From assembly GCF_014334325.1 (NCBI RefSeq), contig NZ_JACSET010000009.1, positions 1 to 64,000 on the forward strand: DNA of 64,000 nt, written 5' to 3'. Position 1 is the first letter of the stretch. Each line of letters starts with the position of its first letter. The notes under the pieces were generated by a model, which saw nothing but the letters and a program-made list of their open reading frames with translations, made no database searches and had not been told where the DNA came from. This DNA is from Treponema sp. Marseille-Q4130 (GTDB lineage: Bacteria > Spirochaetota > Spirochaetia > Treponematales > Treponemataceae). Shown here one piece after another: positions 4,927-62,823 of this stretch. The position numbers were made by a program, and so were the translations under genes.

Positions 4927-5925
4927 TCAGGGGCGCTTCGCATTTCCCGTATAAAGCAATACGTCGTCTGCCTGTTTTTGAAAATAATCGCGGATGCGGA
5001 CGCGGGCATCGCCGGTGTCTTTTGCGTTTTGCATCTGCGTTTGAAAATAGTGCGCAAACGAAAAACCGAGACAGTAATACGCGAAAAAACGCTGCATACG
5101 GGTTTTCCAAAATTCTTGGGGCTGATATTTTTCAAGCATATCGATAAAATCGAGGGCGAGCTTTTCGCGGTCGATCACCGCATCGAAGCTTTCGTGCCGC
5201 AAATCCGCGGCAAGTTCGGCAAAAAGCCACGGTTTTTCGATCGCTCCCCGTGCGATCATAATGCCCGAAGCGTGAGGGGAGGCGCGCAGGGCATCGCGCA
5301 TCGACGGCACATCGCGTACACCGCCGTTTAAAACGACGGAAATACCTTCTTTCGCATATCGCAGGGCAAGGCGTTCGACGTATTCCCATCTGAGAGGCGA
5401 GCGGTATTTTTCTTTACTCGTGCGCGGATGCAATGCAAAAAGCGTTACGCCTTCGGATGCGAGCATATCGCACAACGAAAAGAATCGCTCGTCGGTAAAG
5501 TGCTCATCGCCGAGGCGGAGCTTTACCGAAAGCCTTTTTCCCGAAGGCGAAAGCGCATCTTTTACGCTCCGCACCATAGCGCGAGTTTCGGAAGCATCTT
5601 TCGAAAGCCACGCCGCACCCGCTCCGCTTTTAACGATGTCCGGAGCCGAGCATCCCATATTGATATCGATCCCGATTCCCGGAAGCTTGCCGATCATCGA
5701 AGCGGCTTCCGCAAGGTGTTCGGCTTTCCGTCCGGTGATCTGCCACACCGTTTTTTCCGGCGCAGGATCGGGAATGACATAGTATTTTTCAAAGGGGCCG
5801 CCGTTGACGAAGGTAGCCGCGTTTATCATTTCGGAATAATATTCGTCGCAGCCGCCGAAGCGTTCGACGAGGGTGCGGAACGCCGCGTGCGTAACCGTCG
5901 CGACGGGCGCGCAGATCAATTTCAT
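4927..5925 (-). CDS. tRNA-dihydrouridine synthase family protein
   Basis: This 332-residue Dus-family flavoprotein reduces uridines in tRNA to dihydrouridine using FMN and NADPH. The start MKLICAPVATVTHAAFR matches the FMN-binding opening of the family. NMGCSAP near residue 90 holds the catalytic Cys; the usual GCP is GCS here. LKLR-type (VKLRLG), HPRT and NGGV segments of the TIM barrel follow, then IARGAIEKPWLF. The C-terminal helical domain is present, so it is full length. Subfamily (DusA/B/C) cannot be set by eye. The start codon lies 6 nt downstream of a -10 box, without a ribosome-binding site. Confidence 0.88.
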   Translation of the reverse strand: MKLICAPVATVTHAAFRTLVERFGGCDEYYSEMINAATFVNGGPFEKYYVIPDPAPEKTVWQITGRKAEHLAEAASMIGKLPGIGIDINMGCSAPDIVKSGAGAAWLSKDASETRAMVRSVKDALSPSGKRLSVKLRLGDEHFTDERFFSLCDMLASEGVTLFALHPRTSKEKYRSPLRWEYVERLALRYAKEGISVVLNGGVRDVPSMRDALRASPHASGIMIARGAIEKPWLFAELAADLRHESFDAVIDREKLALDFIDMLEKYQPQEFWKTRMQRFFAYYCLGFSFAHYFQTQMQNAKDTGDARVRIRDYFQKQADDVLLYTGNAKRP

Positions 5926-5931
5926 AGCGCT

Positions 5932-5960
5932 ACTATATCACGTATCAAAAATCGATAAAA
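5932..5960 (-). promoter_or_regulatory. Leaderless-type promoter of dus
   Basis: The -10 box TATAGT (5937-5932) ends 6 nt before the ATG at 5925. The -35 box is weak (TTTTAT, 5960-5955, spacer 17). Transcription should begin at or next to the start codon. Confidence 0.45.
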
Positions 5961-5972
5961 TAGCCGCAGGGA

Positions 5973-6046
5973 AACTTCGCGTTCCGCGGCCGTTGCAAGC
6001 TGCTCGGAAAACTTCGCGCTCAGCGCCCGTTGCAAGCTGTGCGGAC
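5973..6046. repeat. Tandem 37-bp repeat, two units
   Basis: Two imperfect copies start at AACTTCGCG (5973 and 6010), each ending in CCGTTGCAAGCTG plus CGGA. They lie directly upstream of the CYTH gene promoter. No function is visible. Confidence 0.6.
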
Positions 6047-6058
6047 AATGCGGGCGCT

Positions 6059-6086
6059 TTTGCAAAAGGGGCTCCCGTGCTACAAT
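6059..6086 (+). promoter_or_regulatory. Leaderless-type promoter of the CYTH gene
   Basis: TTTGCA (6059-6064), a 16-nt spacer and TACAAT (6081-6086) precede the ATG at 6092 by only 5 nt. There is no room for a ribosome-binding site on a transcript from this promoter. Confidence 0.5.
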
Positions 6087-6091
6087 GCGCT

Positions 6092-6757
6092 ATGTACGAA
6101 ATCGAACTGAAAGCGCATGTCGAAGACCGCATCGCAGTCGCGCACGCCCTCGATATTTTCGCACGGTACGAGGGTTCCCTCACAAAACGCGACACTTATT
6201 ACCGGCTGCCCCTCGCTTGCGTGCCGACCGATACGGAGAAGTCATCCTCGAAGCGCACTGACGCAAAAGTGCATTCGGAAAATACAGCGGTGCAGGACCA
6301 TATCGGCTGCCGCATACGGAAAACGGTTTTCGAAAAAACGGGCGAAACAAAAATCACGTTCACGTATAAACGGAAAGAATTGCGCAAAGATGAGAGCGGA
6401 ATCGCAATCGAAGTAAACGACGAAAAAGAATGTCTTCTCTCCGATAGTGATGCGATCGAATCGTTTATCAAAGATGCGGGAGGCGGCATTTCGCACATAA
6501 AAGAAAAAATTATTAAAGAGTGGTATGCCGAAACAGAGGCGGGAGCGGCGCACATCGAACTGTGTACGGTCCCGCCGCTCGGAGATTTTCTCGAAATAGA
6601 AATACTGGCAAAAGACGATGCGCATACGGAAGACGCGAAACGCGCGATCCTGTCTATTTTCAAAAACTGCGGTATCGATGAAAGCGCGATCGAAAATCGC
6701 TATTACAACGATATGCTCGACGAAAAAGCGCGGGCAAATACGGCAAGCGGCGGGTAA
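6092..6757 (+). CDS. CYTH-domain protein (class IV adenylate cyclase-like)
   Basis: This 221-residue protein is of the CYTH superfamily (CyaB-type class IV adenylate cyclases, thiamine triphosphatases). The signature EIELK (ExExK) is at residues 3-7, followed by RxTYYRLP-like (KRDTYYRLP), RIRKT and TFTYKRKE, which line the triphosphate tunnel. FLEIEILAK near the C-terminus supplies the second acidic strand. The upstream in-frame extension to 5873 lies outside the family fold and before the promoter, so the ATG at 6092 is preferred. Whether it makes cAMP or hydrolyses a triphosphate cannot be told from sequence. Confidence 0.85.
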   Translation: MYEIELKAHVEDRIAVAHALDIFARYEGSLTKRDTYYRLPLACVPTDTEKSSSKRTDAKVHSENTAVQDHIGCRIRKTVFEKTGETKITFTYKRKELRKDESGIAIEVNDEKECLLSDSDAIESFIKDAGGGISHIKEKIIKEWYAETEAGAAHIELCTVPPLGDFLEIEILAKDDAHTEDAKRAILSIFKNCGIDESAIENRYYNDMLDEKARANTASGG

Positions 6758-55256: not shown

Positions 55257-55285
55257 TTGACAGGATCGGCGGAAAAGAATATCGT
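55257..55285 (+). promoter_or_regulatory. Promoter of the nitrogenase-like operon
   Basis: A perfect TTGACA (55257-55262), a 17-nt spacer and TATCGT (55280-55285). The expected start of transcription is near 55292, inside the palindrome at 55285-55298. Confidence 0.65.
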
Positions 55286-55298
55286 TAGCAACTGCTAA
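55285..55298. promoter_or_regulatory. Operator candidate over the nitrogenase-like operon start
   Basis: TTAGC-AACT-GCTAA is a perfect inverted repeat that overlaps the end of the -10 box and the transcription start. Its TTAGC/GCTAA arms resemble sites of DtxR/TroR-type metal-dependent repressors; that identification is by likeness only. Confidence 0.45.
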
Positions 55299-55323
55299 TT
55301 ATTTACACTGGTGGAGTATGTTC

Positions 55324-56106
55324 ATGAGAAGAATTGCAATTTACGGAAAAGGCGGTATCGGAAAATCGACGACAACGTCGAATCTGTCTGCCGCGCTGAG
55401 TACGATGGGATATAAAGTGATGCAGATCGGCTGCGATCCGAAATCCGATTCCGTAAAAAACCTTATGGGCGGAAAAAAGATCGTGACGGTACTCGATCGG
55501 CTGCGCGAAGACGAAGAAGCCGAACTGCACCTTGACGATATCGTGTTTAAGGGCTTTAACGGCATTCTGTGTGTGGAAGCGGGAGGACCCACTCCGGGCA
55601 TCGGCTGCGCGGGACGTGGCATCATCACCGCATTCGATAAATTGGAAGAACTCGGAGCGTATACGACATACCGGCCGGATATCGTATTTTACGACGTTCT
55701 CGGAGATGTCGTATGCGGCGGCTTTGCGATGCCGATCCGAAACGGCTATGCGCGCGACGTGTTTATCGTTACCTCAGGCGAGATGATGTCGCTGTATGCG
55801 GCTTCGAACATCGCACACGCTATTTCGAATTTCGGCTCTCGCGGTTATGCACGGTATTCCGGCGTCATCCTCAATTCGCGTAACGTTGAAAACGAACTCG
55901 AAACCGTAAACGAAGCGCTGAAAGAAATCGGCGGCAGTGTCGTTTCCGTCATTCCGCGCGACGGCGTCGTACAGCAAGCCGAAGATCAGGGCAAGACGGT
56001 GATCGAAGCCTTTCCGGAATCGCATCAGGCCGATTGTTATCGAAAGCTCGCCGAAGAAATCCTTGCGCGAAGTGAAGACGTCGCTCTTGAAAACGGAGTC
56101 GCGTAA
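55324..56106 (+). CDS. NifH-like Fe protein (nitrogenase-like reductase component)
   Basis: This 260-residue protein of the NifH/BchL/CfbC superfamily has P-loop GKGGIGKST (residues 8-16), GCDPKSDS switch region, and the two cysteines that bind a bridging [4Fe-4S] cluster: Cys95 in [10 protein letters not shown] and Cys131 in [11 protein letters not shown]. The Arg in CAGRG is kept. It would hydrolyse ATP and pass low-potential electrons to the next two proteins. The second ATG (55324) has GGAG at proper spacing; the ATG at 55318 is too close. The stop overlaps the next start (TAATG). It is not true NifH by context, since no nifENB or other nif genes are present. Confidence 0.9.
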
Positions 56107-57392
56107 TGGAGTGCCGTTCAGCCTGTTTTACGACGACGCTGCACTACGAATCCCCCGCTCACGGCGGCTGGGGCGTCATCCGCGTCGCCGCCCTCGTACC
56201 GGAAGTGTATATGCTTTTCGTTTCTCCCTTCGCCTGCGGCAGACACGGCGCGCTCGGAGGAATCATCAACGGTGTAAAGGATAAAGTATCCTATCTTTTT
56301 ATCGGCGAAAAAGAGATCGTCTCCGGCGATTACGAAGCACAGGTTTTCAGCGCAATCGAAGAACTTTTTGCGTTTTTGAAAAAAAAGCCGCGCGTGTTGT
56401 TTTTATTCGTGTCCTGTCTTGACGATATGCTCGGCACCGATCATGCGGCGCTCGATGAAAAACTTGAGCAAACATATCCGGACGTCCTTTTCCGTTCCTG
56501 CCACATGAATCCGATTCAATCGGATACGCCGCTTCCGCCGCTCGTGTCGCTGAATCGAAATATGTACAGTCTGCTCTCTTCTCCCGACGGAAAAGAAGCC
56601 GAACACTTTAAAAACTATGTAAATCTCATCGGAAACAATGTGCTTCCGGTAGCCGGTTCCGAACTCTACCGCATCATGGGCGACAACGGTATCCGCGTAC
56701 GCCATATAAGCGAATGCAAAACATTCGACGAATACTATGCGATGCGGACGAGCGGTATGAATATCGTACTCTCTCCCGCCGCGGCTTTTGCCGCCCGCGA
56801 TATGGAAAAAAATCCGGGCATTCCGTATTTTTTGTCGTACGTCACCTACGATCCCGACGGCATAAAAGATATGTACGGAGAGCTCGCGAAAAAACTTTCC
56901 GATGCGGGTATGAACGTATCGTTTGACATCGAGCGCGATTATGAAAATGCAAAAGCATCTCTCCGTGAAACCGCGGCTTTTTTAGACGGTACGCCCGTCG
57001 CGATCGATTTTCAAGCGGTAAAGCAGCCGTGTGCGCTCGCGAAGACGCTCATCTCTTACGGGTTTACGGTAAAGCTGCTCGCCGTCGATAAAATCCTTCC
57101 GTTTGAAAAAGAAAGTTTCGAGTGGCTTAAAACGCACGCTCCTCATTTGGAAATTGCAAGTCCGCTGCATCACGACTCTCCGAAATTCGCGTACCGATCG
57201 TACTCCGACTGTTTGTGCATCGGTTTCGACTGCGGCTATATGACCGGATCGGAAAAGGTCGTCAACATCATGGACGACGAGGGCAATTTCGGTTTTTCAG
57301 GCGTCGTCCGCCTTATGGAAATGATGCGGAGCGCAAATGCCCGCCGAGCCGATGTCGCCGAAATGATCAGGGAGGCAAAGCTTATTATATGA
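56106..57392 (+). CDS. Nitrogenase component 1-like subunit A (NifD/K family)
   Basis: This 428-residue protein of the oxidoreductase/nitrogenase component 1 family is shorter than NifD or NifK. Cys44 in SPFACGRHG aligns with the HGPxGC cysteine, and Cys104 in FVSCLDDMLGTD with the TCxxxxIGDD cysteine. The first P-cluster cysteine of NifD is not seen, and neither are the FeMo-cofactor ligands. With subunit B it probably forms the heterodimer that holds a simple Fe-S cluster and the substrate site. It overlaps subunit B by 4 nt. No characterised subfamily could be assigned. Confidence 0.82.
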   Translation: MECRSACFTTTLHYESPAHGGWGVIRVAALVPEVYMLFVSPFACGRHGALGGIINGVKDKVSYLFIGEKEIVSGDYEAQVFSAIEELFAFLKKKPRVLFLFVSCLDDMLGTDHAALDEKLEQTYPDVLFRSCHMNPIQSDTPLPPLVSLNRNMYSLLSSPDGKEAEHFKNYVNLIGNNVLPVAGSELYRIMGDNGIRVRHISECKTFDEYYAMRTSGMNIVLSPAAAFAARDMEKNPGIPYFLSYVTYDPDGIKDMYGELAKKLSDAGMNVSFDIERDYENAKASLRETAAFLDGTPVAIDFQAVKQPCALAKTLISYGFTVKLLAVDKILPFEKESFEWLKTHAPHLEIASPLHHDSPKFAYRSYSDCLCIGFDCGYMTGSEKVVNIMDDEGNFGFSGVVRLMEMMRSANARRADVAEMIREAKLII

Positions 57393-58579
57393 ATAATTTG
57401 TGTTTGGTTTTGCCGCCCTTCGCGCCCGATTATTCGGGAGTCGCTTCTTCGCTCTTTGAGCTCGGAGGTATGATCGTTATCCACGATGCGTCCGGCTGCA
57501 CGGGAAATTATTTGGGATACGATGAACCTCGCTGGATGAATTCGAAATCGATCGTGTTTTGCTCGGGGCTGCGCCATATGGACGCGGTACTCGGAAACGA
57601 TAAAAAACTTGTCAAACGGATGATTGAAGCCGCCGAAAGTTTACAACCCGCTTTTATCGCGCTGCTCGGAAGTCCCGTTCCCATGGTCATCGGTACGGAT
57701 TACGACGGCATCGCTTCGGAAGTGGAAAAAGCGACGGGGATCCCGTCGTTCGGCTTCGACACGAAGGGTACGGTGTTTTACGATAAAGGCGTCTCCATGG
57801 GGACGATCGCGCTTTTAAAGCGTTTCGCTCCGGCTTCAAAGCGCTGTGAAAAGCAAAACAATGCGATCAATCTCCTCGGCTTGACGCCGCTCGATTTCGG
57901 CAACAGCGGAAACGCAGAAGCTGTACGCGCCCTGTTTGAAAAAAGCGGTATTGAAATCATTGCAAGCCTTTCGATGGGACTTTCGCTCGACGATTTGAAA
58001 CGCAGCCCCTCTGCGGCCTTGAACGTCGCGCTTTCGTATGCGGGGATCGAAATCGCAAAATATATGGAAAGGGTGTATCGCATTCCCTACATTGCGGGCG
58101 TTCCGCTCGGAGACGGAAAGGCGATGCTTACGGCCGTACGGCGCTTTCTTTCCGGCGAAAAAAGCGATTCGGGGAGCGTATGGGAAATCGCTTCGAAAGC
58201 GAATGCGGCGCAAACCTCGCACAAACGGATTTTGATTGCGGGAGAGCAGGTTACGGCATGTTCGATTCGAAACGAACTCAGGCGTATTTCTCGAACGGCG
58301 GACATAGAAGCGGCATACCTTTTCAATTCGTTTCCGGAATACGCCGAAACATGCGATCATAAAGCCGTGTGCGAACGGGAACTCATGGATCTTGTAAACG
58401 GCGGTTCGTACACCGATATCGTAGCCGATCCGCTTGTCGGAGAATTGATAAAAGATTCTTCCGTCAGGTTTCACGGTTTGCCGCACGTAGCCGTTTCGAG
58501 CAAAGTGTGCTGGGACGACACGAAGTGCGTCATAGGCGATGACATGACGCGCTTTCTTTTTGAAATCGCCGAAGGATGA
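57389..58579 (+). CDS. Nitrogenase component 1-like subunit B (NifK/BchB-like)
   Basis: This 396-residue second component-1 protein has Cys37 in VIHDASGCTGNYLGYDEPRW, matching the HGxxGC region, Cys58 in FCSGLRHMDAVLG, which corresponds to the SxxLxExDAVFGG segment, and ALLGSPVPMVIGTD, where the third canonical cysteine is Ser95. Later parts carry GDGKAMLTAVRRFL and a C-terminal Rossmann-like domain (RILIAGEQVTACSIRNEL, DIVADPLVGELI). The ATG at 57389 overlaps the subunit A stop; the longer frame to 57215 lies inside that gene. Confidence 0.82.
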   Translation: MNNLCLVLPPFAPDYSGVASSLFELGGMIVIHDASGCTGNYLGYDEPRWMNSKSIVFCSGLRHMDAVLGNDKKLVKRMIEAAESLQPAFIALLGSPVPMVIGTDYDGIASEVEKATGIPSFGFDTKGTVFYDKGVSMGTIALLKRFAPASKRCEKQNNAINLLGLTPLDFGNSGNAEAVRALFEKSGIEIIASLSMGLSLDDLKRSPSAALNVALSYAGIEIAKYMERVYRIPYIAGVPLGDGKAMLTAVRRFLSGEKSDSGSVWEIASKANAAQTSHKRILIAGEQVTACSIRNELRRISRTADIEAAYLFNSFPEYAETCDHKAVCERELMDLVNGGSYTDIVADPLVGELIKDSSVRFHGLPHVAVSSKVCWDDTKCVIGDDMTRFLFEIAEG

Positions 58580-58597
58580 TCGGTAATCGGTGAAGAG

Positions 58598-58696
58598 AAA
58601 ATTATTAATTGTTAATGGGTAATTGATAATTTTACGGTAGAGAGCATTATCGGTTTTTATTTTTGAGTAAACTGAGAATTGATACATAAAATCAAT
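58598..58696 (+). promoter_or_regulatory. Gap with hairpin and palindrome before the first SBP gene
   Basis: AAAATTATTAATT (58598-58610) and AATTGATAATTTT (58621-58633) form a hairpin. Further on, ATTGAT-ACATAAA-ATCAAT (58678-58696) is a perfect palindrome just before AGGAGG. TTGAGT with a 17-nt spacer and ATAAAA near 58686 could be an internal promoter. The importer genes may thus be separately controlled. Confidence 0.4.
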
Positions 58697-58706
58697 AGGA
58701 GGATAT

Positions 58707-59789
58707 ATGAAAAAGATGATCATAAAAGTCTGTGCCGTACTCTGTCTCTTTACGGCATCGCGTGCTTTTGCCGCGCCGAAAACGCATACCGTTGTCGACC
58801 ACGCGGGCAATACCGTTGAAGTACCGAATAAAATCAACAGAATTGTTATCGCAAGTCTCTATCCGCTGCCTTCGGTCTATTGTCTGTATGCGGATTCCGC
58901 AAAAAAACTCGTCGGAATTCCTGCCAGTTCCATGGCGGCTGCAAAAGCATCGTTTCTTGTAAAAGCGTATCCCGAAATTGCAAACGCGAAGACGGGATTC
59001 GAAAAGGGCGGCGTCATCAACGCGGAAGAATTAATGGCGCTCAAACCCGATGTCATTTTTTACAATGCCGGAGCGAAATCGTCAAAAGCGATTTTCGATA
59101 AAACGGGAATCCCCGCCGTCGGCTTTTCAACGTCGATTGCGAAGTTCAATACGATCGAAACCTATGCGGCGTGGATCGATCTTTTGGCAAAAGTGCTCGG
59201 TGAAACGGATCGTTCGAAAAAGCTTATCGAGTACGGAAGAAAAATCGAACGCGACGTCAAAGCGCGTATCGCTTCGATCCCCGAAGAAAAAAAGCCGAGT
59301 GCGATGATCATCTATTCGTACGATAACGGAAAGATTACGACCTACGGAAAAAAGATGTTTCCTGAATATTGGATTACGACGGCAGGCGGGATCAATGCTG
59401 CGAAGTCGGAAGGCGGAGTGGTGGAACTCAATATGGAACAGATTTACGCATGGAATCCCGATATCGTGATTTTAACAAATTTCAATACCAAACTTCCCGA
59501 AGATTTCGACGACGGCATTGTCGACGGCAACGACTGGTCGAGCGTGAGCGCTGTACAAAAAAAACAAGTGTATAAATTTCCGCTCGGCATGTACCGCTGG
59601 TGTCCGCCGTCGTCCGATTCGCCGCTTTCGCTCGTATTCCTTGCAAAGACGATCCAGCCGAAATTATTTGAAGACTACGACCTCGATAAAATCATCGTCG
59701 ATTATTATAAGGATTTCTACGGAATAACGCTCACTTCCGGCGACCTCCATACGATTTATCATCCGTCGAGATCCGCCGCAGGTTTGTAA
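58707..59789 (+). CDS. Periplasmic binding protein, FecB/BtuF type (soluble)
   Basis: This 360-residue substrate-binding protein of the iron-complex/B12 (PeripBP_2) class has a cleavable signal peptide ending in SRAFA-APK and no lipobox. VVDHAGNTVEVPNKINRIVI opens the domain. NMEQIYAWNPDIVIL is the conserved C-lobe entry, and PLGMYRWCPPSSDSPL the family end motif. It presents a metal complex to the adjacent FecCD-type permease. AGGAGG precedes the ATG. It is paralogous to the lipoprotein at 61693. Confidence 0.88.
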   Translation: MKKMIIKVCAVLCLFTASRAFAAPKTHTVVDHAGNTVEVPNKINRIVIASLYPLPSVYCLYADSAKKLVGIPASSMAAAKASFLVKAYPEIANAKTGFEKGGVINAEELMALKPDVIFYNAGAKSSKAIFDKTGIPAVGFSTSIAKFNTIETYAAWIDLLAKVLGETDRSKKLIEYGRKIERDVKARIASIPEEKKPSAMIIYSYDNGKITTYGKKMFPEYWITTAGGINAAKSEGGVVELNMEQIYAWNPDIVILTNFNTKLPEDFDDGIVDGNDWSSVSAVQKKQVYKFPLGMYRWCPPSSDSPLSLVFLAKTIQPKLFEDYDLDKIIVDYYKDFYGITLTSGDLHTIYHPSRSAAGL

Positions 59790-59809
59790 ACGAAAAGGAA
59801 AACGCAATT

Positions 59810-60823
59810 ATGAATTATACTGCAGGGCAGCGCAAAATCATCTTTGCAGCTCTCGCCGTGCTGCCGCTTTTTACCGCCCTCATCTGTCTCGGATTCGGGC
59901 GCTATGCGCTCGGCGTTTTCGATACGGTGCGCATCCTCTTTTCCGGCGTGACGAAGGCGGAGATAACTGCGGTTGAACGCTCCGTCATCTTCAGCGTCCG
60001 CTTGCCGCGCATCATTTTGGCGGCTTTTGTCGGAGCGGGTTTAAGCTGCGCGGGTGCCGCGTTTCAGGGTTTATTTACGAATCCGCTCGCGACGCCCGAC
60101 ACGCTCGGAGTGGCAAGCGGCGCATCCTTCGGTGCGGTATCGGCACTTCTTTTTCGAAGCAATTTGATCGTCGTGCAGCTTTCAGCTCTTGTATTCGGAC
60201 TCGTCGCCTGCGCCGTCACGTATTCGGTGGGACGATTCCGCGGACGCAGTTCGGTCGTCATGATCGTGCTTTCGGGCATGGTCGTCTCGGCACTCTTCCA
60301 AGCCTTTGTGTCGCTCGTCAAATACGCCGCCGATCCGCAGGATATTTTGCCGTCGATCACGTATTGGCTTATGGGCAGTATGTCGGGCGCAAGCTATAAA
60401 ACGCTTTTGCTCGGTCTTCCGTTTATCGTTACGGGAACGCTCATCATCTTTTTGCTGCGCTGGCGGCTCAATATTTTATCGCTGAACGAAGACGAAGCGC
60501 GTTCGATGGGAATGAATATCCGCGTGATGCGCCTGCTCGTCATCGTCGCCTCATCTCTTATCACCGCGTCCGCCGTGTCGATGTGCGGTTCGATCGGCTG
60601 GGTTGGCTTGCTCGTTCCGCACATGGCGCGTATGCTCATGGGCAGCAACAATCGCACCGTAATTCCCATAAGCATCAGTTTGGGTTCGGTCTTCGTTATC
60701 GTTATCGATACATTTGCAAGAAGCATGAGTGCGGCCGAAATCCCGATTTCGATTTTGACGGCGGTTATCGGCGCGCCGTTTTTTATCGCGCTATTACGAA
60801 AAACGGGAGGTTCGTGGACATGA
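59810..60823 (+). CDS. FecCD/BtuC-type ABC transporter permease
   Basis: This 337-residue permease has about nine to ten membrane helices. LSCAGAAFQGLFTNPLATPDTLGVASGASFGA and SIGWVGLLVPHMARML (given in parts) are hallmarks of the FecCD family, which transports ferric siderophores, haem or cobalamin. It functions as a homodimer since only one permease gene is present. It overlaps the ATPase gene by 4 nt. Confidence 0.94.
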   Translation: MNYTAGQRKIIFAALAVLPLFTALICLGFGRYALGVFDTVRILFSGVTKAEITAVERSVIFSVRLPRIILAAFVGAGLSCAGAAFQGLFTNPLATPDTLGVASGASFGAVSALLFRSNLIVVQLSALVFGLVACAVTYSVGRFRGRSSVVMIVLSGMVVSALFQAFVSLVKYAADPQDILPSITYWLMGSMSGASYKTLLLGLPFIVTGTLIIFLLRWRLNILSLNEDEARSMGMNIRVMRLLVIVASSLITASAVSMCGSIGWVGLLVPHMARMLMGSNNRTVIPISISLGSVFVIVIDTFARSMSAAEIPISILTAVIGAPFFIALLRKTGGSWT

Positions 60824-61605
60824 CTTTTTCCGTACGGGGCGGCTCGTTCGCCTACGGTACCGAGCGCGTGCTCGATCGCATTTCGTTTTCCGTCGAAAGC
60901 GGAGAAGTGTTGTGCATACTCGGTCCGAACGGTGTCGGTAAAACGACGCTGCTCAAATGCATGATGGGATTATTAAAATGGGATGAGGGCGAAACCCTTA
61001 TCGACGGGAGAGCGCTTGAAAGCTGGAGACAAAAAGATCTGTGGCGGCGCATCGCATACGTTCCGCAGGCGAAAGGTGTCGCGTTCGGTTTTACCGCCTT
61101 CGACATGGTGCTGCTCGGCAGAAGCGCTCACCTCGGCACTTTCGAACAGCCGGATGAAAAAGACAAACGCATTGCCCTTCGCGCAATGGAAGACACGGGT
61201 ATCGCATCTCTCCGCGATAAGCTCTGCACCGAAATGAGCGGAGGTGAACTGCAGATGGTACTTATCGCGCGCGCTCTTGCGGTAGAACCCGAAATGCTCG
61301 TATTCGACGAGCCTGAATCGAATTTGGATTTTAAAAATCAATTGATAATTTTAAATACGATTTACCGTCTTGCAAAAGAGCGGCATATTTCGGCTGTCGT
61401 GAACACGCACTATCCCGCTCATGCGATGAAGATCGCCGACAAAGCGCTCATTCTGAACAGGGACGGTGAAAGCACGAGCGGCGCGATCGAAAAAGTCATC
61501 ACCGAAGATTCGATGAAAAAGACGTTCAGCGTGCAAGTACACATCAACGAGTTCGAATATCAAAACACAAAATACAAGGACGTCGTCCCGCTGTATTTAG
61601 TGTGA
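60820..61605 (+). CDS. FecE/BtuD-type ABC transporter ATPase
   Basis: This 261-residue ATPase of the importer has Walker A GPNGVGKTT, signature MSGGELQMV, Walker B LVFDEPESNLD and the switch His in VNTHYPAHA. The ATG at 60820 overlaps the permease stop (ATGA); the longer frame to 60583 lies inside the permease gene. It powers import of the metal complex. Confidence 0.94.
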   Translation: MTFSVRGGSFAYGTERVLDRISFSVESGEVLCILGPNGVGKTTLLKCMMGLLKWDEGETLIDGRALESWRQKDLWRRIAYVPQAKGVAFGFTAFDMVLLGRSAHLGTFEQPDEKDKRIALRAMEDTGIASLRDKLCTEMSGGELQMVLIARALAVEPEMLVFDEPESNLDFKNQLIILNTIYRLAKERHISAVVNTHYPAHAMKIADKALILNRDGESTSGAIEKVITEDSMKKTFSVQVHINEFEYQNTKYKDVVPLYLV

Positions 61606-61606
61606 A

Positions 61607-61682
61607 TTATGGAAAAACGCGTGCGCTTTCGCGCACTGCTAAAAACTTTTTCGAAAGTTGTAACTTTCCGCAAAAGTTTTTT
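61607..61682 (-). repeat. Partial multi-hairpin repeat, intergenic in the importer operon
   Basis: On the minus strand AAACTTTTGCGGAAAGTTAC, AACTTTCGAAAAAGTTTTT, AGCA, GTGCGC-GAAA-GCGCAC match the first half of the repeats at 42086 and 45303, with stem bases replaced but pairing kept. On the plus strand it forms two hairpins after the ATPase gene, ending in seven T, then GGAGG for the next gene. Confidence 0.65.
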
Positions 61683-61692
61683 TGGAGGAATT

Positions 61693-62823
61693 ATGAAAAA
61701 GAATATTGTCCGTATCGGAACGCTTTTCGCGTGCCTGGCGCTTTCGACCTTCGCCATTTCCTGCTCGAAGTCGGGCGCTGCGAAAGAGGCGGCAACGCGC
61801 ACCGTTATCGATCACGACGACGAAAGCGTCGTCATCCCCGCAAAGGTCAATCGCGCCGTCGTTGTCGGCGTGTGGCCGCTTCCGTCCGTCATCACGGTAT
61901 TTTTGGGAAGTCCCGACCGCCTCGTCGGCATTCCGCCCGCATCGATAGGGGCTGCAAAAGCGGGACTGCTCGGAGAACTTTTCCCGTCGTATTTGAATAT
62001 CGATTCGCACTTTCTTGCAAACGATACGCTGAACGTCGAAGAAGTGCTCGCGCTCAAACCCGACGTCGTCTTTACAACGGCGCACCGTTCGCAGCAAAAA
62101 GAGGAAATCAAAAAGGCGGGACTCGCCGCCGTCGCCGTCAGTGTCAACAAATGGAATTACAATATTCTCGATACCTACGACGGATGGATCGACGTACTCA
62201 GTCAGGTTTTTCCGGAAAACGATAAAAAAGACGCGGTGAGCGCATACAGCCGAAAAGTCTACGAAACGATTCAGTCCCGCGTTTCGTCCATCCCCGAAAA
62301 CGACCGCAAAAAAGTGCTGTTTTTGTTTATGTGTAATGAAAAAACTATCGTGACGAGCGGCAAACGTTTTTTCGGACAGTTTTGGTGCGACGCCGTCGGT
62401 GCGAAAAACGTTGCGGAAGAAGTAGGCGCTGAAAACAGCAACGCCGTCATCAATATGGAACAGATATACAAGTGGAATCCCGATATCATTTTAATAACCA
62501 ATTTTACCTCCCAGACGGCCGACGATCTGTATAACAACAGGACGGCGAATTATGATTGGTCGCCGATCAAAGCGGTACAAAACCGAACCGTATACAAAAT
62601 GCCGCTCGGAACGTACCGCAGTTATACGCCGAGTGCGGACACGCCGGTAACGCTGTACTGGATCGCAAAAAAAGTGTACCCCGAACTCTTCGGCGATATC
62701 GACGTCGAAAAGGAAGTGAAGTCGTATTTTAAAGATATGTATAATATCGATTTGACCGACGAGCAGATAAACCGTATGTACAATCAGGATTCGAAGGGTG
62801 CGGCAGGAACGAGAGGCGCCTAA
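61693..62823 (+). CDS. Substrate-binding lipoprotein, FecB/BtuF type
   Basis: This 376-residue paralogue of the soluble binding protein has a lipobox FAISC (Cys24), VIDHDDESVVIPAKVNRAV, NMEQIYKWNPDIILI and PLGTYRSYTPSADTPV. Being lipidated, it is tethered to a membrane, whereas its partner is free in the periplasm. GGAGG precedes the ATG at 61693; an in-frame ATG at 61609 would run through the hairpins. The hairpin and T-run before it may lower or separate its expression from the upstream genes. Confidence 0.88.
   Translation: MKKNIVRIGTLFACLALSTFAISCSKSGAAKEAATRTVIDHDDESVVIPAKVNRAVVVGVWPLPSVITVFLGSPDRLVGIPPASIGAAKAGLLGELFPSYLNIDSHFLANDTLNVEEVLALKPDVVFTTAHRSQQKEEIKKAGLAAVAVSVNKWNYNILDTYDGWIDVLSQVFPENDKKDAVSAYSRKVYETIQSRVSSIPENDRKKVLFLFMCNEKTIVTSGKRFFGQFWCDAVGAKNVAEEVGAENSNAVINMEQIYKWNPDIILITNFTSQTADDLYNNRTANYDWSPIKAVQNRTVYKMPLGTYRSYTPSADTPVTLYWIAKKVYPELFGDIDVEKEVKSYFKDMYNIDLTDEQINRMYNQDSKGAAGTRGA

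Follow-up and report, generated by a model that had tools for sequence, protein, structure and literature searches.

Relatives of nitrogenase are known for nitrogen fixation, for the reduction of tetrapyrroles and for the breaking of C-S bonds. The subject here is an operon of the spirochaete Treponema sp. Marseille-Q4130, in which three nitrogenase-like genes (H, D and K) precede the genes of an ATP-binding cassette (ABC) importer. It lies in the first 64,000 nucleotides of contig NZ_JACSET010000009.1, the whole stretch that was analysed and that is called the window below; the source genome has 2.79 Mb and is 99.8% complete. Several described enzymes resemble this system. The dark-operative protochlorophyllide oxidoreductase (DPOR, BchLNB) and the chlorophyllide oxidoreductase (COR, BchXYZ) comprise, like the window operon, a NifH-like donor and two component-1 subunits. 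In CfbCD, the component-1 subunit has two cysteines, as described for NflD in the available part of PMC3464626; CfbD is a single subunit, whereas the window has two dissimilar ones. DPOR, COR and CfbCD act on tetrapyrroles, which these nitrogenase relatives reduce according to the accessible text of PMC7242693. MarBHDK and IsrBHDK are likewise NifHDK-like reductases that do not fix nitrogen, and Isr stands beside an importer, but the available portion of PMC11423573 describes them with a radical S-adenosylmethionine (SAM) B protein, with an importer of another type in Isr, and with a sulfur physiology.

Uncharacterised pairs in which D has two cysteines and K has one were reported by Dos Santos et al. 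2012 (PMC3464626, in the part available), including Mlab_1040/1039, Dhaf_1539/1540 and those of Coprococcus catus and Dorea. The D and K of the window have the same pattern, and the pairs are likened by description, not by tree. The authors also saw some nitrogenase-like genes next to ABC transporters and proposed that metal transport is linked with the assembly of cofactors. Compared with that account, the type of transporter and its conservation across phyla are shown here, and no iron operator is reported in its available text. The original prediction knew of no characterised member with such a layout; as the 2012 account shows, the layout had not gone entirely unremarked. No report of an iron-regulated nitrogenase-like operon was found in the literature searched, most subscription journals and bioRxiv being outside its scope. 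The candidate iron operator, the specific importer and the cross-phylum counts presented below appear new as far as that literature goes.

The operon may be an iron-starvation system in which the uptake of an iron complex is coupled to intracellular reduction of that complex, a reading to which about even chances are given. The more specific proposal, held with a little less confidence and falling just short of even, is that an ATP-driven, oxygen-independent enzyme reductively strips iron from an imported chelate, either an iron porphyrin or a ferric siderophore, and would represent a new physiological branch of the nitrogenase family. The features of the operon are the following.

55257-55285, + strand: promoter-like TTGACA-N17-TATCGT upstream of the operon, 10 of 12 consensus positions
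55284-55299, no strand: palindromic operator GTTAGCAACTGCTAAT, one mismatch to GTTAG-N6-CTAAC, overlapping the -10 hexamer
55318-56106, + strand: H, NifH-like ATP-dependent reductase component, 262 aa (Pfam Fer4_NifH, E 1.7e-97)
56106-57392, + strand: D, first component-1-like subunit, 428 aa (Pfam Oxidored_nitro, E 2.4e-18)
57389-58579, + strand: K, second component-1-like subunit, 396 aa (Pfam Oxidored_nitro, E 1.2e-25)
58707-59789, + strand: SBP1, substrate-binding protein, 360 aa (Pfam Peripla_BP_2, E 1.5e-24)
59810-60823, + strand: FecCD/BtuC-type permease (Pfam FecCD, E 2e-85)
60820-61605, + strand: FecE/BtuD-type ATPase (Pfam ABC_tran, E 4e-31)
61693-62823, + strand: SBP2, substrate-binding protein, 376 aa (Pfam Peripla_BP_2, E 1.1e-23)

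All seven operon proteins score above the Pfam cut-offs for their domains. The first reading of this DNA had described a NifH-like protein with both cluster cysteines, two component-1-like subunits and then a FecBCD-type importer with two binding proteins, all on a single strand, and each of these elements is present. Numbered from the first ATG, the cysteines are C97 and C133; numbering from the third residue makes them C95 and C131. The importer belongs to the FecBCD/BtuFCD type by its Peripla_BP_2, FecCD and ABC_tran domains. H and D overlap by 1 base and D and K by 4 bases. The operon had also been called fused to the importer; the genes do adjoin, but the word is too strong because 127 bp separate K from SBP1. 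Judged by eye, SBP1 begins with a signal peptide without a lipobox and SBP2 with a lipoprotein-like N terminus; the two proteins are 37% identical. The K protein and its counterpart in Treponema socranskii subsp. paredis (L056) share 97% identity. Elsewhere in the window, between 46000 and 50000, the GC content falls to 0.29-0.35 against about 0.5 over most of its length, which may mean foreign DNA.

The position of the enzyme among its relatives was assessed in a quick maximum-likelihood tree of 62 proteins, with 17 rows each for D and K (three of each from loci without the importer). Both subunits form clades of their own, with a support of 100 in the Shimodaira-Hasegawa-like approximate likelihood ratio test (SH-aLRT) and stems of 1.66 and 1.55 changes per site. 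These clades stand apart from NifD, NifK, NifE, NifN, the alternative pairs, BchN, BchB, BchY and BchZ, and also from two NifX-linked pairs (Treponema saccharophilum, L187, and Chlorohelix, L191) that served as stand-ins for MarDK and IsrDK; the nearest rows are those of a long-branched spirochaete pair (L027). Several reference rows, Bch included, are long branches, and the tree was built without CfbD, MarDK, IsrDK and Mlab_1039/1040. It supports the proposed ATP-driven reductase of two components and places it apart from the clades of Nif and Bch. Grouping inside a known clade, which the original prediction had named as counting against it, is thus not seen for Nif and Bch, CfbD and MarDK having no rows in the tree.

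Family models give a similar picture. H shares 56% identity with a NifH and 39% with a BchL, and no operon protein passes any NCBIfam cut-off among the models listed (for the ATPase, the best 25 of 185 matches). With the Nif models, H reached 353 against a cut-off of 394 (nifH), D and K reached 37 and 73 against 505 (nifE), and K reached 52 against 654 (nifD). The Bch models gave 203 against 345 (BchL), 197 against 331 (BchX) and 48 against 490 (BchB), so that in contrast to DPOR and COR the window proteins stay far below the cut-offs. On the CfbC model H scored 352.6 against 402 and on CfbD K scored 26 against 268, with no hit for D.

The cysteines suggest what kind of cluster the enzyme carries. 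The residue numbers and roles used here for the known enzymes are those that we take to apply, with BchN C51 and C112 and BchB D36 as cluster ligands and NifD C275 as the cofactor cysteine. In D, C44 and C104 are invariant in 63 of 63 proteins and align with two NifD cysteines (C88, C154) and with BchN C51 and C112, while C3 occurs in 19 of the first 20 compared. In K, C37 and D14 are invariant (63/63); C37 aligns with NifK C95 and with BchB D36, and D14, which adjoins the NifK C70 column, could be the fourth cluster ligand. The cluster cysteines of H are present in 20 of 20 proteins. The column of NifK C153 holds a proline (K P96, 63/63), as does that of NifD C62 (D P17, in 16 of the 16 new D proteins aligned and in at least 90% of the 63). 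Of the six P-cluster cysteines of Mo nitrogenase, three per subunit, D has two and K one, and the cofactor-cysteine column (NifD C275; alignment column 333) is not conserved in the new D proteins. Unlike in DPOR, there is no cysteine in the segment of the first BchN ligand, and the operon has no photosynthesis genes. NifB was not found in the window's genome at E 0.001, with a model that an IsrB-like protein would escape. In the same genome, D and K are the only two component-1 matches and, besides H, no NifH-family match exceeds 38 bits. Taken together, three invariant cluster cysteines, an unconserved cofactor cysteine and no NifB make it likely that H-D-K is a [4Fe-4S]-only reductase, built like protochlorophyllide reductase with one [4Fe-4S] cluster and a substrate cavity that is open. 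We class the system among the uncharacterised nitrogenase-like reductases and not with Nif, Bch, Cfb or Mar.

Two other views of the enzyme bear on this point. H-D-K could be a NifEN-like scaffold, with the importer as the source of a metal and D-K as the site where a metallocluster for other enzymes is built or repaired. The best solved-structure matches of the D and K profiles, which are NifE and a NifD, agree with this, as does the coupling of metal transport to cofactor assembly suggested in 2012 (PMC3464626, available part). So does a CobW/HypB/UreG-type GTPase found in 8 of 85 loci, accompanied by a signal-less SBP_bac_6 protein and a soluble protein with an ABC ATPase domain. Against a scaffold stand the failure to find NifB and the missing ligands of a second cluster; moreover, 7 of the 9 carrier genomes searched (completeness unstated) hold only two component-1 matches and therefore no client pair, and induction under iron shortage, if true, would suit scavenging better. 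A scaffold is thus considered unlikely. The enzyme could also be a sulfur- or nitrogen-scavenging reductase like Mar or Isr that lies by chance beside an iron importer. H is 54-55% identical to two NifX-linked NifH-like proteins, and in the available part of PMC11423573 group IV Mar and Isr serve sulfur assimilation, Isr adjoining SsuABC genes. The same text gives Mar and Isr a radical SAM partner, but Pfam found no B-type radical SAM gene among the seven genes of the operon, the loci of relatives not having been searched with a radical SAM model. The importer is moreover of FecBCD type and conserved, D and K lie outside the two NifX-linked pairs, and no NifB was found, with the reservation given above for IsrB-like proteins. 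This explanation seems very improbable.

The proposal of coupled import and reduction depends on the pairing of enzyme and importer, which was surveyed in relatives. K matches occur in 62 of 392 sampled genomes of the phylum, and 14 of the 19 spirochaete relatives whose surroundings were compared have H-D-K beside importer genes. A scan of a genome collection with the K profile gave at least 594 pattern matches, at least 556 of which encode relatives, and the best 80 were used; by record title these are 46 Bacillota, 25 Spirochaetota, 5 Synergistota and 4 others. Among these 80, a FecCD permease was found in 40 of the 41 loci having at least 6 kb on both sides. When shorter loci in which a permease was found are included, the permease is present in 71 of 72 evaluable loci, 67 of which have permease, ATPase and binding protein; the other 8 of the 80 are too short to judge. 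The sole evaluable locus without a permease is that of Lactococcus hodotermopsidis (L078). In at least 58 of 69 loci, a count that missed a few genes, the permease follows H-D-K on the same strand no more than 6 kb downstream; L061, L104 and L132 are among those with the permease upstream or on the opposite strand. A more distant FecBCD-type importer, with a permease 41-49% identical, occurs in L085-L087, L113 and L115. One to four binding proteins accompany the permease in 70 of 71 loci, and none in one, on a short contig. The layout of H-D-K and importer is not due to chance, since 14 of 19 spirochaete relatives and 40 of 41 collection loci share it. The absence of the importer from the locus in all relatives, which the original prediction had named as counting against it, is not what the survey found.

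Other features of these loci were observed. A companion group by the operon consists of a CobW/HypB/UreG-type GTPase (8 loci), a soluble ABC ATPase domain protein (7 loci) and signal-less SBP_bac_6 proteins in two clusters of 4 loci each, with one or two members per cluster checked by Pfam; it is seen in L059, L065, L067, L083, L081, L094, L106 and L130 and is possibly a cytosolic metal-handling module. In the importer-less loci L053-L055, K is shortened. The same operon is found on a plasmid of T. saccharophilum, pTS1, of 424 kb (L186); on another plasmid, pTS2 (L187), there is a distinct nitrogenase-like set that is linked to NifX and accompanied by an ABC transporter of its own. A K relative with 43% identity is encoded at 5035-6168 of MT836848.1, an 8.5 kb record from human faeces filed as "Bacteriophage sp."; our guess is a bacterial fragment rather than a phage.

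The control of the operon was approached through the regions upstream of H. Those of the window and of 74 loci with a complete H (n=75) were compared over 250 bp each, 18.75 kb in total. GTTAG-N6-CTAAC with at most one mismatch occurs in 41 of the 75, against a mean of 0.37 and a maximum of 3 in 200 dinucleotide shuffles, and the exact form in 25, against none in the shuffles. With other spacings, from 0 to 14, no more than one exact match and no more than 12 one-mismatch matches were obtained. The 1.21 Mb of locus DNA contains 66 exact sites, 35 of which fall in the 18.75 kb of upstream regions. TTGAC starts 18-40 bp before the site in 28 of 41 cases (random placement: mean 6.4, maximum 14). 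The operator therefore covers or follows the -10 box, where a repressor site would be placed. A scan for the promoter pattern gave 9 sites in all, against a shuffle mean of 7.3. In L106, L127 and L130 the site is farther upstream, before a Crp-like gene. Among the importer-less spirochaete loci four of five lack the site and L051 has two, and the importer-less L078 has none.

What the operator marks elsewhere is seen most clearly in other carriers. In four carriers there are 2, 15, 8 and 18 exact sites, whereas the reversed pattern, itself a different palindrome, occurs 0, 1, 0 and 1 times. Of the exact sites, 13 of 15 in Clostridium sporosphaeroides (G393) and 15 of 18 in G395 were inspected, and four of the five omitted are at the operon itself. 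In these Bacillota, the sites stand at feoA-feoB (L172, L180), a DtxR-family gene (L170), DUF3793 with flavodoxin (L175), a ferritin-like gene as second gene (L182), ABC half-transporters and Trep_Strep energy-coupling factor (ECF) transporters (L168, L169, L179, L183), a FecB-type transporter (L173) and a NikA-like gene (L178); one or two members per kind were placed by family searches and the rest by eye. In the spirochaete carriers G191, G283, G273, G374 and G382, sites number 7, 37, 10, 3 and 14 against 2, 3, 1, 3 and 3 reversed. Those inspected were 6 of 7 in G191, 19 of 37 in G283 and 12 of 14 in G382, with none in G273 and none further in G374. By BLAST to proteins already identified at sites, feoA or feoB stands at sites in G283 (L253, L256) and G382 (L247), and further sites stand at ABC half-transporters, ECF transporters, flavodoxin, DUF3793, NikA-like and MMPL genes; several site genes carry no label. 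Further FeoA-like proteins and, at a G191 site (L250), a Fur-like gene were recognised by eye, and no feo gene was seen at the 6 of 7 G191 sites inspected.

In the window's own genome, TTAGYNNNNRCTAA lies, apart from this operon, ahead of a TonB-dependent receptor gene with tonB upstream (L145), a pair of ABC half-transporter genes (L144), an MMPL exporter and an NMT1-type transporter that diverges from a Crp-like gene (both L142), and one gene of no assigned kind (L143). The link to iron in this genome is thinner and rests on the kinds of genes at the sites. The MMPL-family exporter recurs near the operator in several treponemes (L142:9195-11585, L248, L255) and in L255 lies close to the nitrogenase-like operon. 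Genes judged by eye to be enolase-like (L248, L253) and xylose isomerase-like (L255) also have sites in front of them, a hint that the iron regulon extends to sugar metabolism.

The spacing of the operator fits Crp/Fnr-type sites, and a Crp-like gene cluster is found in 14 loci, mostly near H (one member checked by Pfam), with the member in L126 far off. The regulator is nevertheless probably an iron sensor of DtxR or Fur type; a Crp/Fnr-type regulator appears less likely because DtxR- and Fur-like genes carry sites and because of the iron content of the regulon. Given an operator over or after the promoter and shared with iron genes in relatives, the operon would be expected to be on when iron is short.

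The cargo is less directly indicated. A profile of 40 binding proteins compared with solved structures gave 324 bits with 4ovk, 152 with HI_1472, 92 with a protein named for nickel or iron and 38 with BtuF; the invariant residues include W156, W249, W277, Y296 and R297. The permease and the ATPase have their best NCBIfam scores with BtuC and corrinoid models, all below cut-off. This last result, and the action of DPOR, COR and CfbCD on tetrapyrroles, would suit an enzyme that reduces an imported corrinoid or other tetrapyrrole for cofactor salvage and not for iron. However, the binding proteins match BtuF weakly, the operator is common to iron genes in relatives, and no sign of cobalamin control was found: at the gathering score Rfam has no family in the window and only a tRNA in the seven of 80 relatives that were searched, and the B12-box pattern has no match in 80 loci. 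Control of the operon by B12 was consequently rejected. Salvage of this kind is regarded as quite unlikely, and the corrinoid, which the original prediction had listed among the possible substrates, loses support. The linkage to the importer is upheld. For the more general idea of a metal complex as cargo, the operator common to feoAB and other iron genes in relatives is independent support. The cargo is probably an iron complex, which may be a haem-like compound or a siderophore, and either the metal or the ligand may be reduced.

Reductive removal of iron from such a complex could proceed as follows. Iron shortage would lift repression of the operon. The binding proteins would capture an iron chelate, either an iron porphyrin-like ring or a siderophore, and the FecBCD-type importer would bring it into the cell. 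Spending ATP, the NifH-like dimer would pass electrons singly to a [4Fe-4S] cluster lying between the two subunits D and K, and the chelate may be reduced in the D-K cavity, as the linkage and the enzyme type suggest. Either the macrocycle or ligand would be reduced, weakening its grip on iron, or the Fe(III) of a very stable siderophore would be reduced, for which a very low potential is needed. Both routes fit known chemistry: relatives of the enzyme reduce tetrapyrroles, and ferric catecholates need very low potentials. The iron would then be freed to the cell.

A number of observations weigh against the reading of the operon as an iron-starvation system. In the window's genome the operator pattern occurs six times and the reversed pattern 41 times, so that the count alone gives no excess there; none of these six sites is at feoAB, and the DtxR-family locus of this genome that was checked (L146) has no site. 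The TonB-dependent receptor of the window's regulon has none of the FRAP/NPNL motifs, presumably those of haem receptors. There is no excess over the control in G374 (3 against 3), several sites stand at genes without an evident iron link, such as L174, L177, L181 and L184, and DtxR-, Fur- and Crp-like genes all carry sites, which singles out no regulator. The site is lacking in 34 of the 75 upstream regions, and five of the 19 spirochaete relatives (L051-L055) have H-D-K without this importer. The neighbourhoods cover the best 80 of at least 556 relatives of K, a sample not thinned for relatedness and biased to close relatives because the rest are unseen. An iron-sulphur enzyme would also be costly to make when iron is short. 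Finally, the kinship of the binding proteins to HI_1472, which we take to be molybdate-binding, and to the protein named for nickel or iron makes another metal possible. The importer and the enzyme would then serve molybdenum, tungsten, nickel or cobalt, with an operator that answers to several metals. The NikA-like gene in the regulon fits this view, but iron is indicated by the presence of FeoA/FeoB, flavodoxin, ferritin-like and DtxR-family genes at this operator, and another metal is given a low probability.

To our knowledge, the ways in which strict anaerobes take iron from haem or from very stable chelates are poorly understood. If true, iron scavenging would be a new role for the nitrogenase family, and anaerobes would have a route to iron that needs neither an oxygen-dependent haem oxygenase nor siderophore hydrolysis. 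The carriers are many, with at least 556 relatives of K, and those seen are, by record titles, mostly gut, rumen and oral anaerobes. With its named genes, a regulator site that can be measured and growth tests that are simple, the operon gives a way into the study of iron acquisition in anaerobes.

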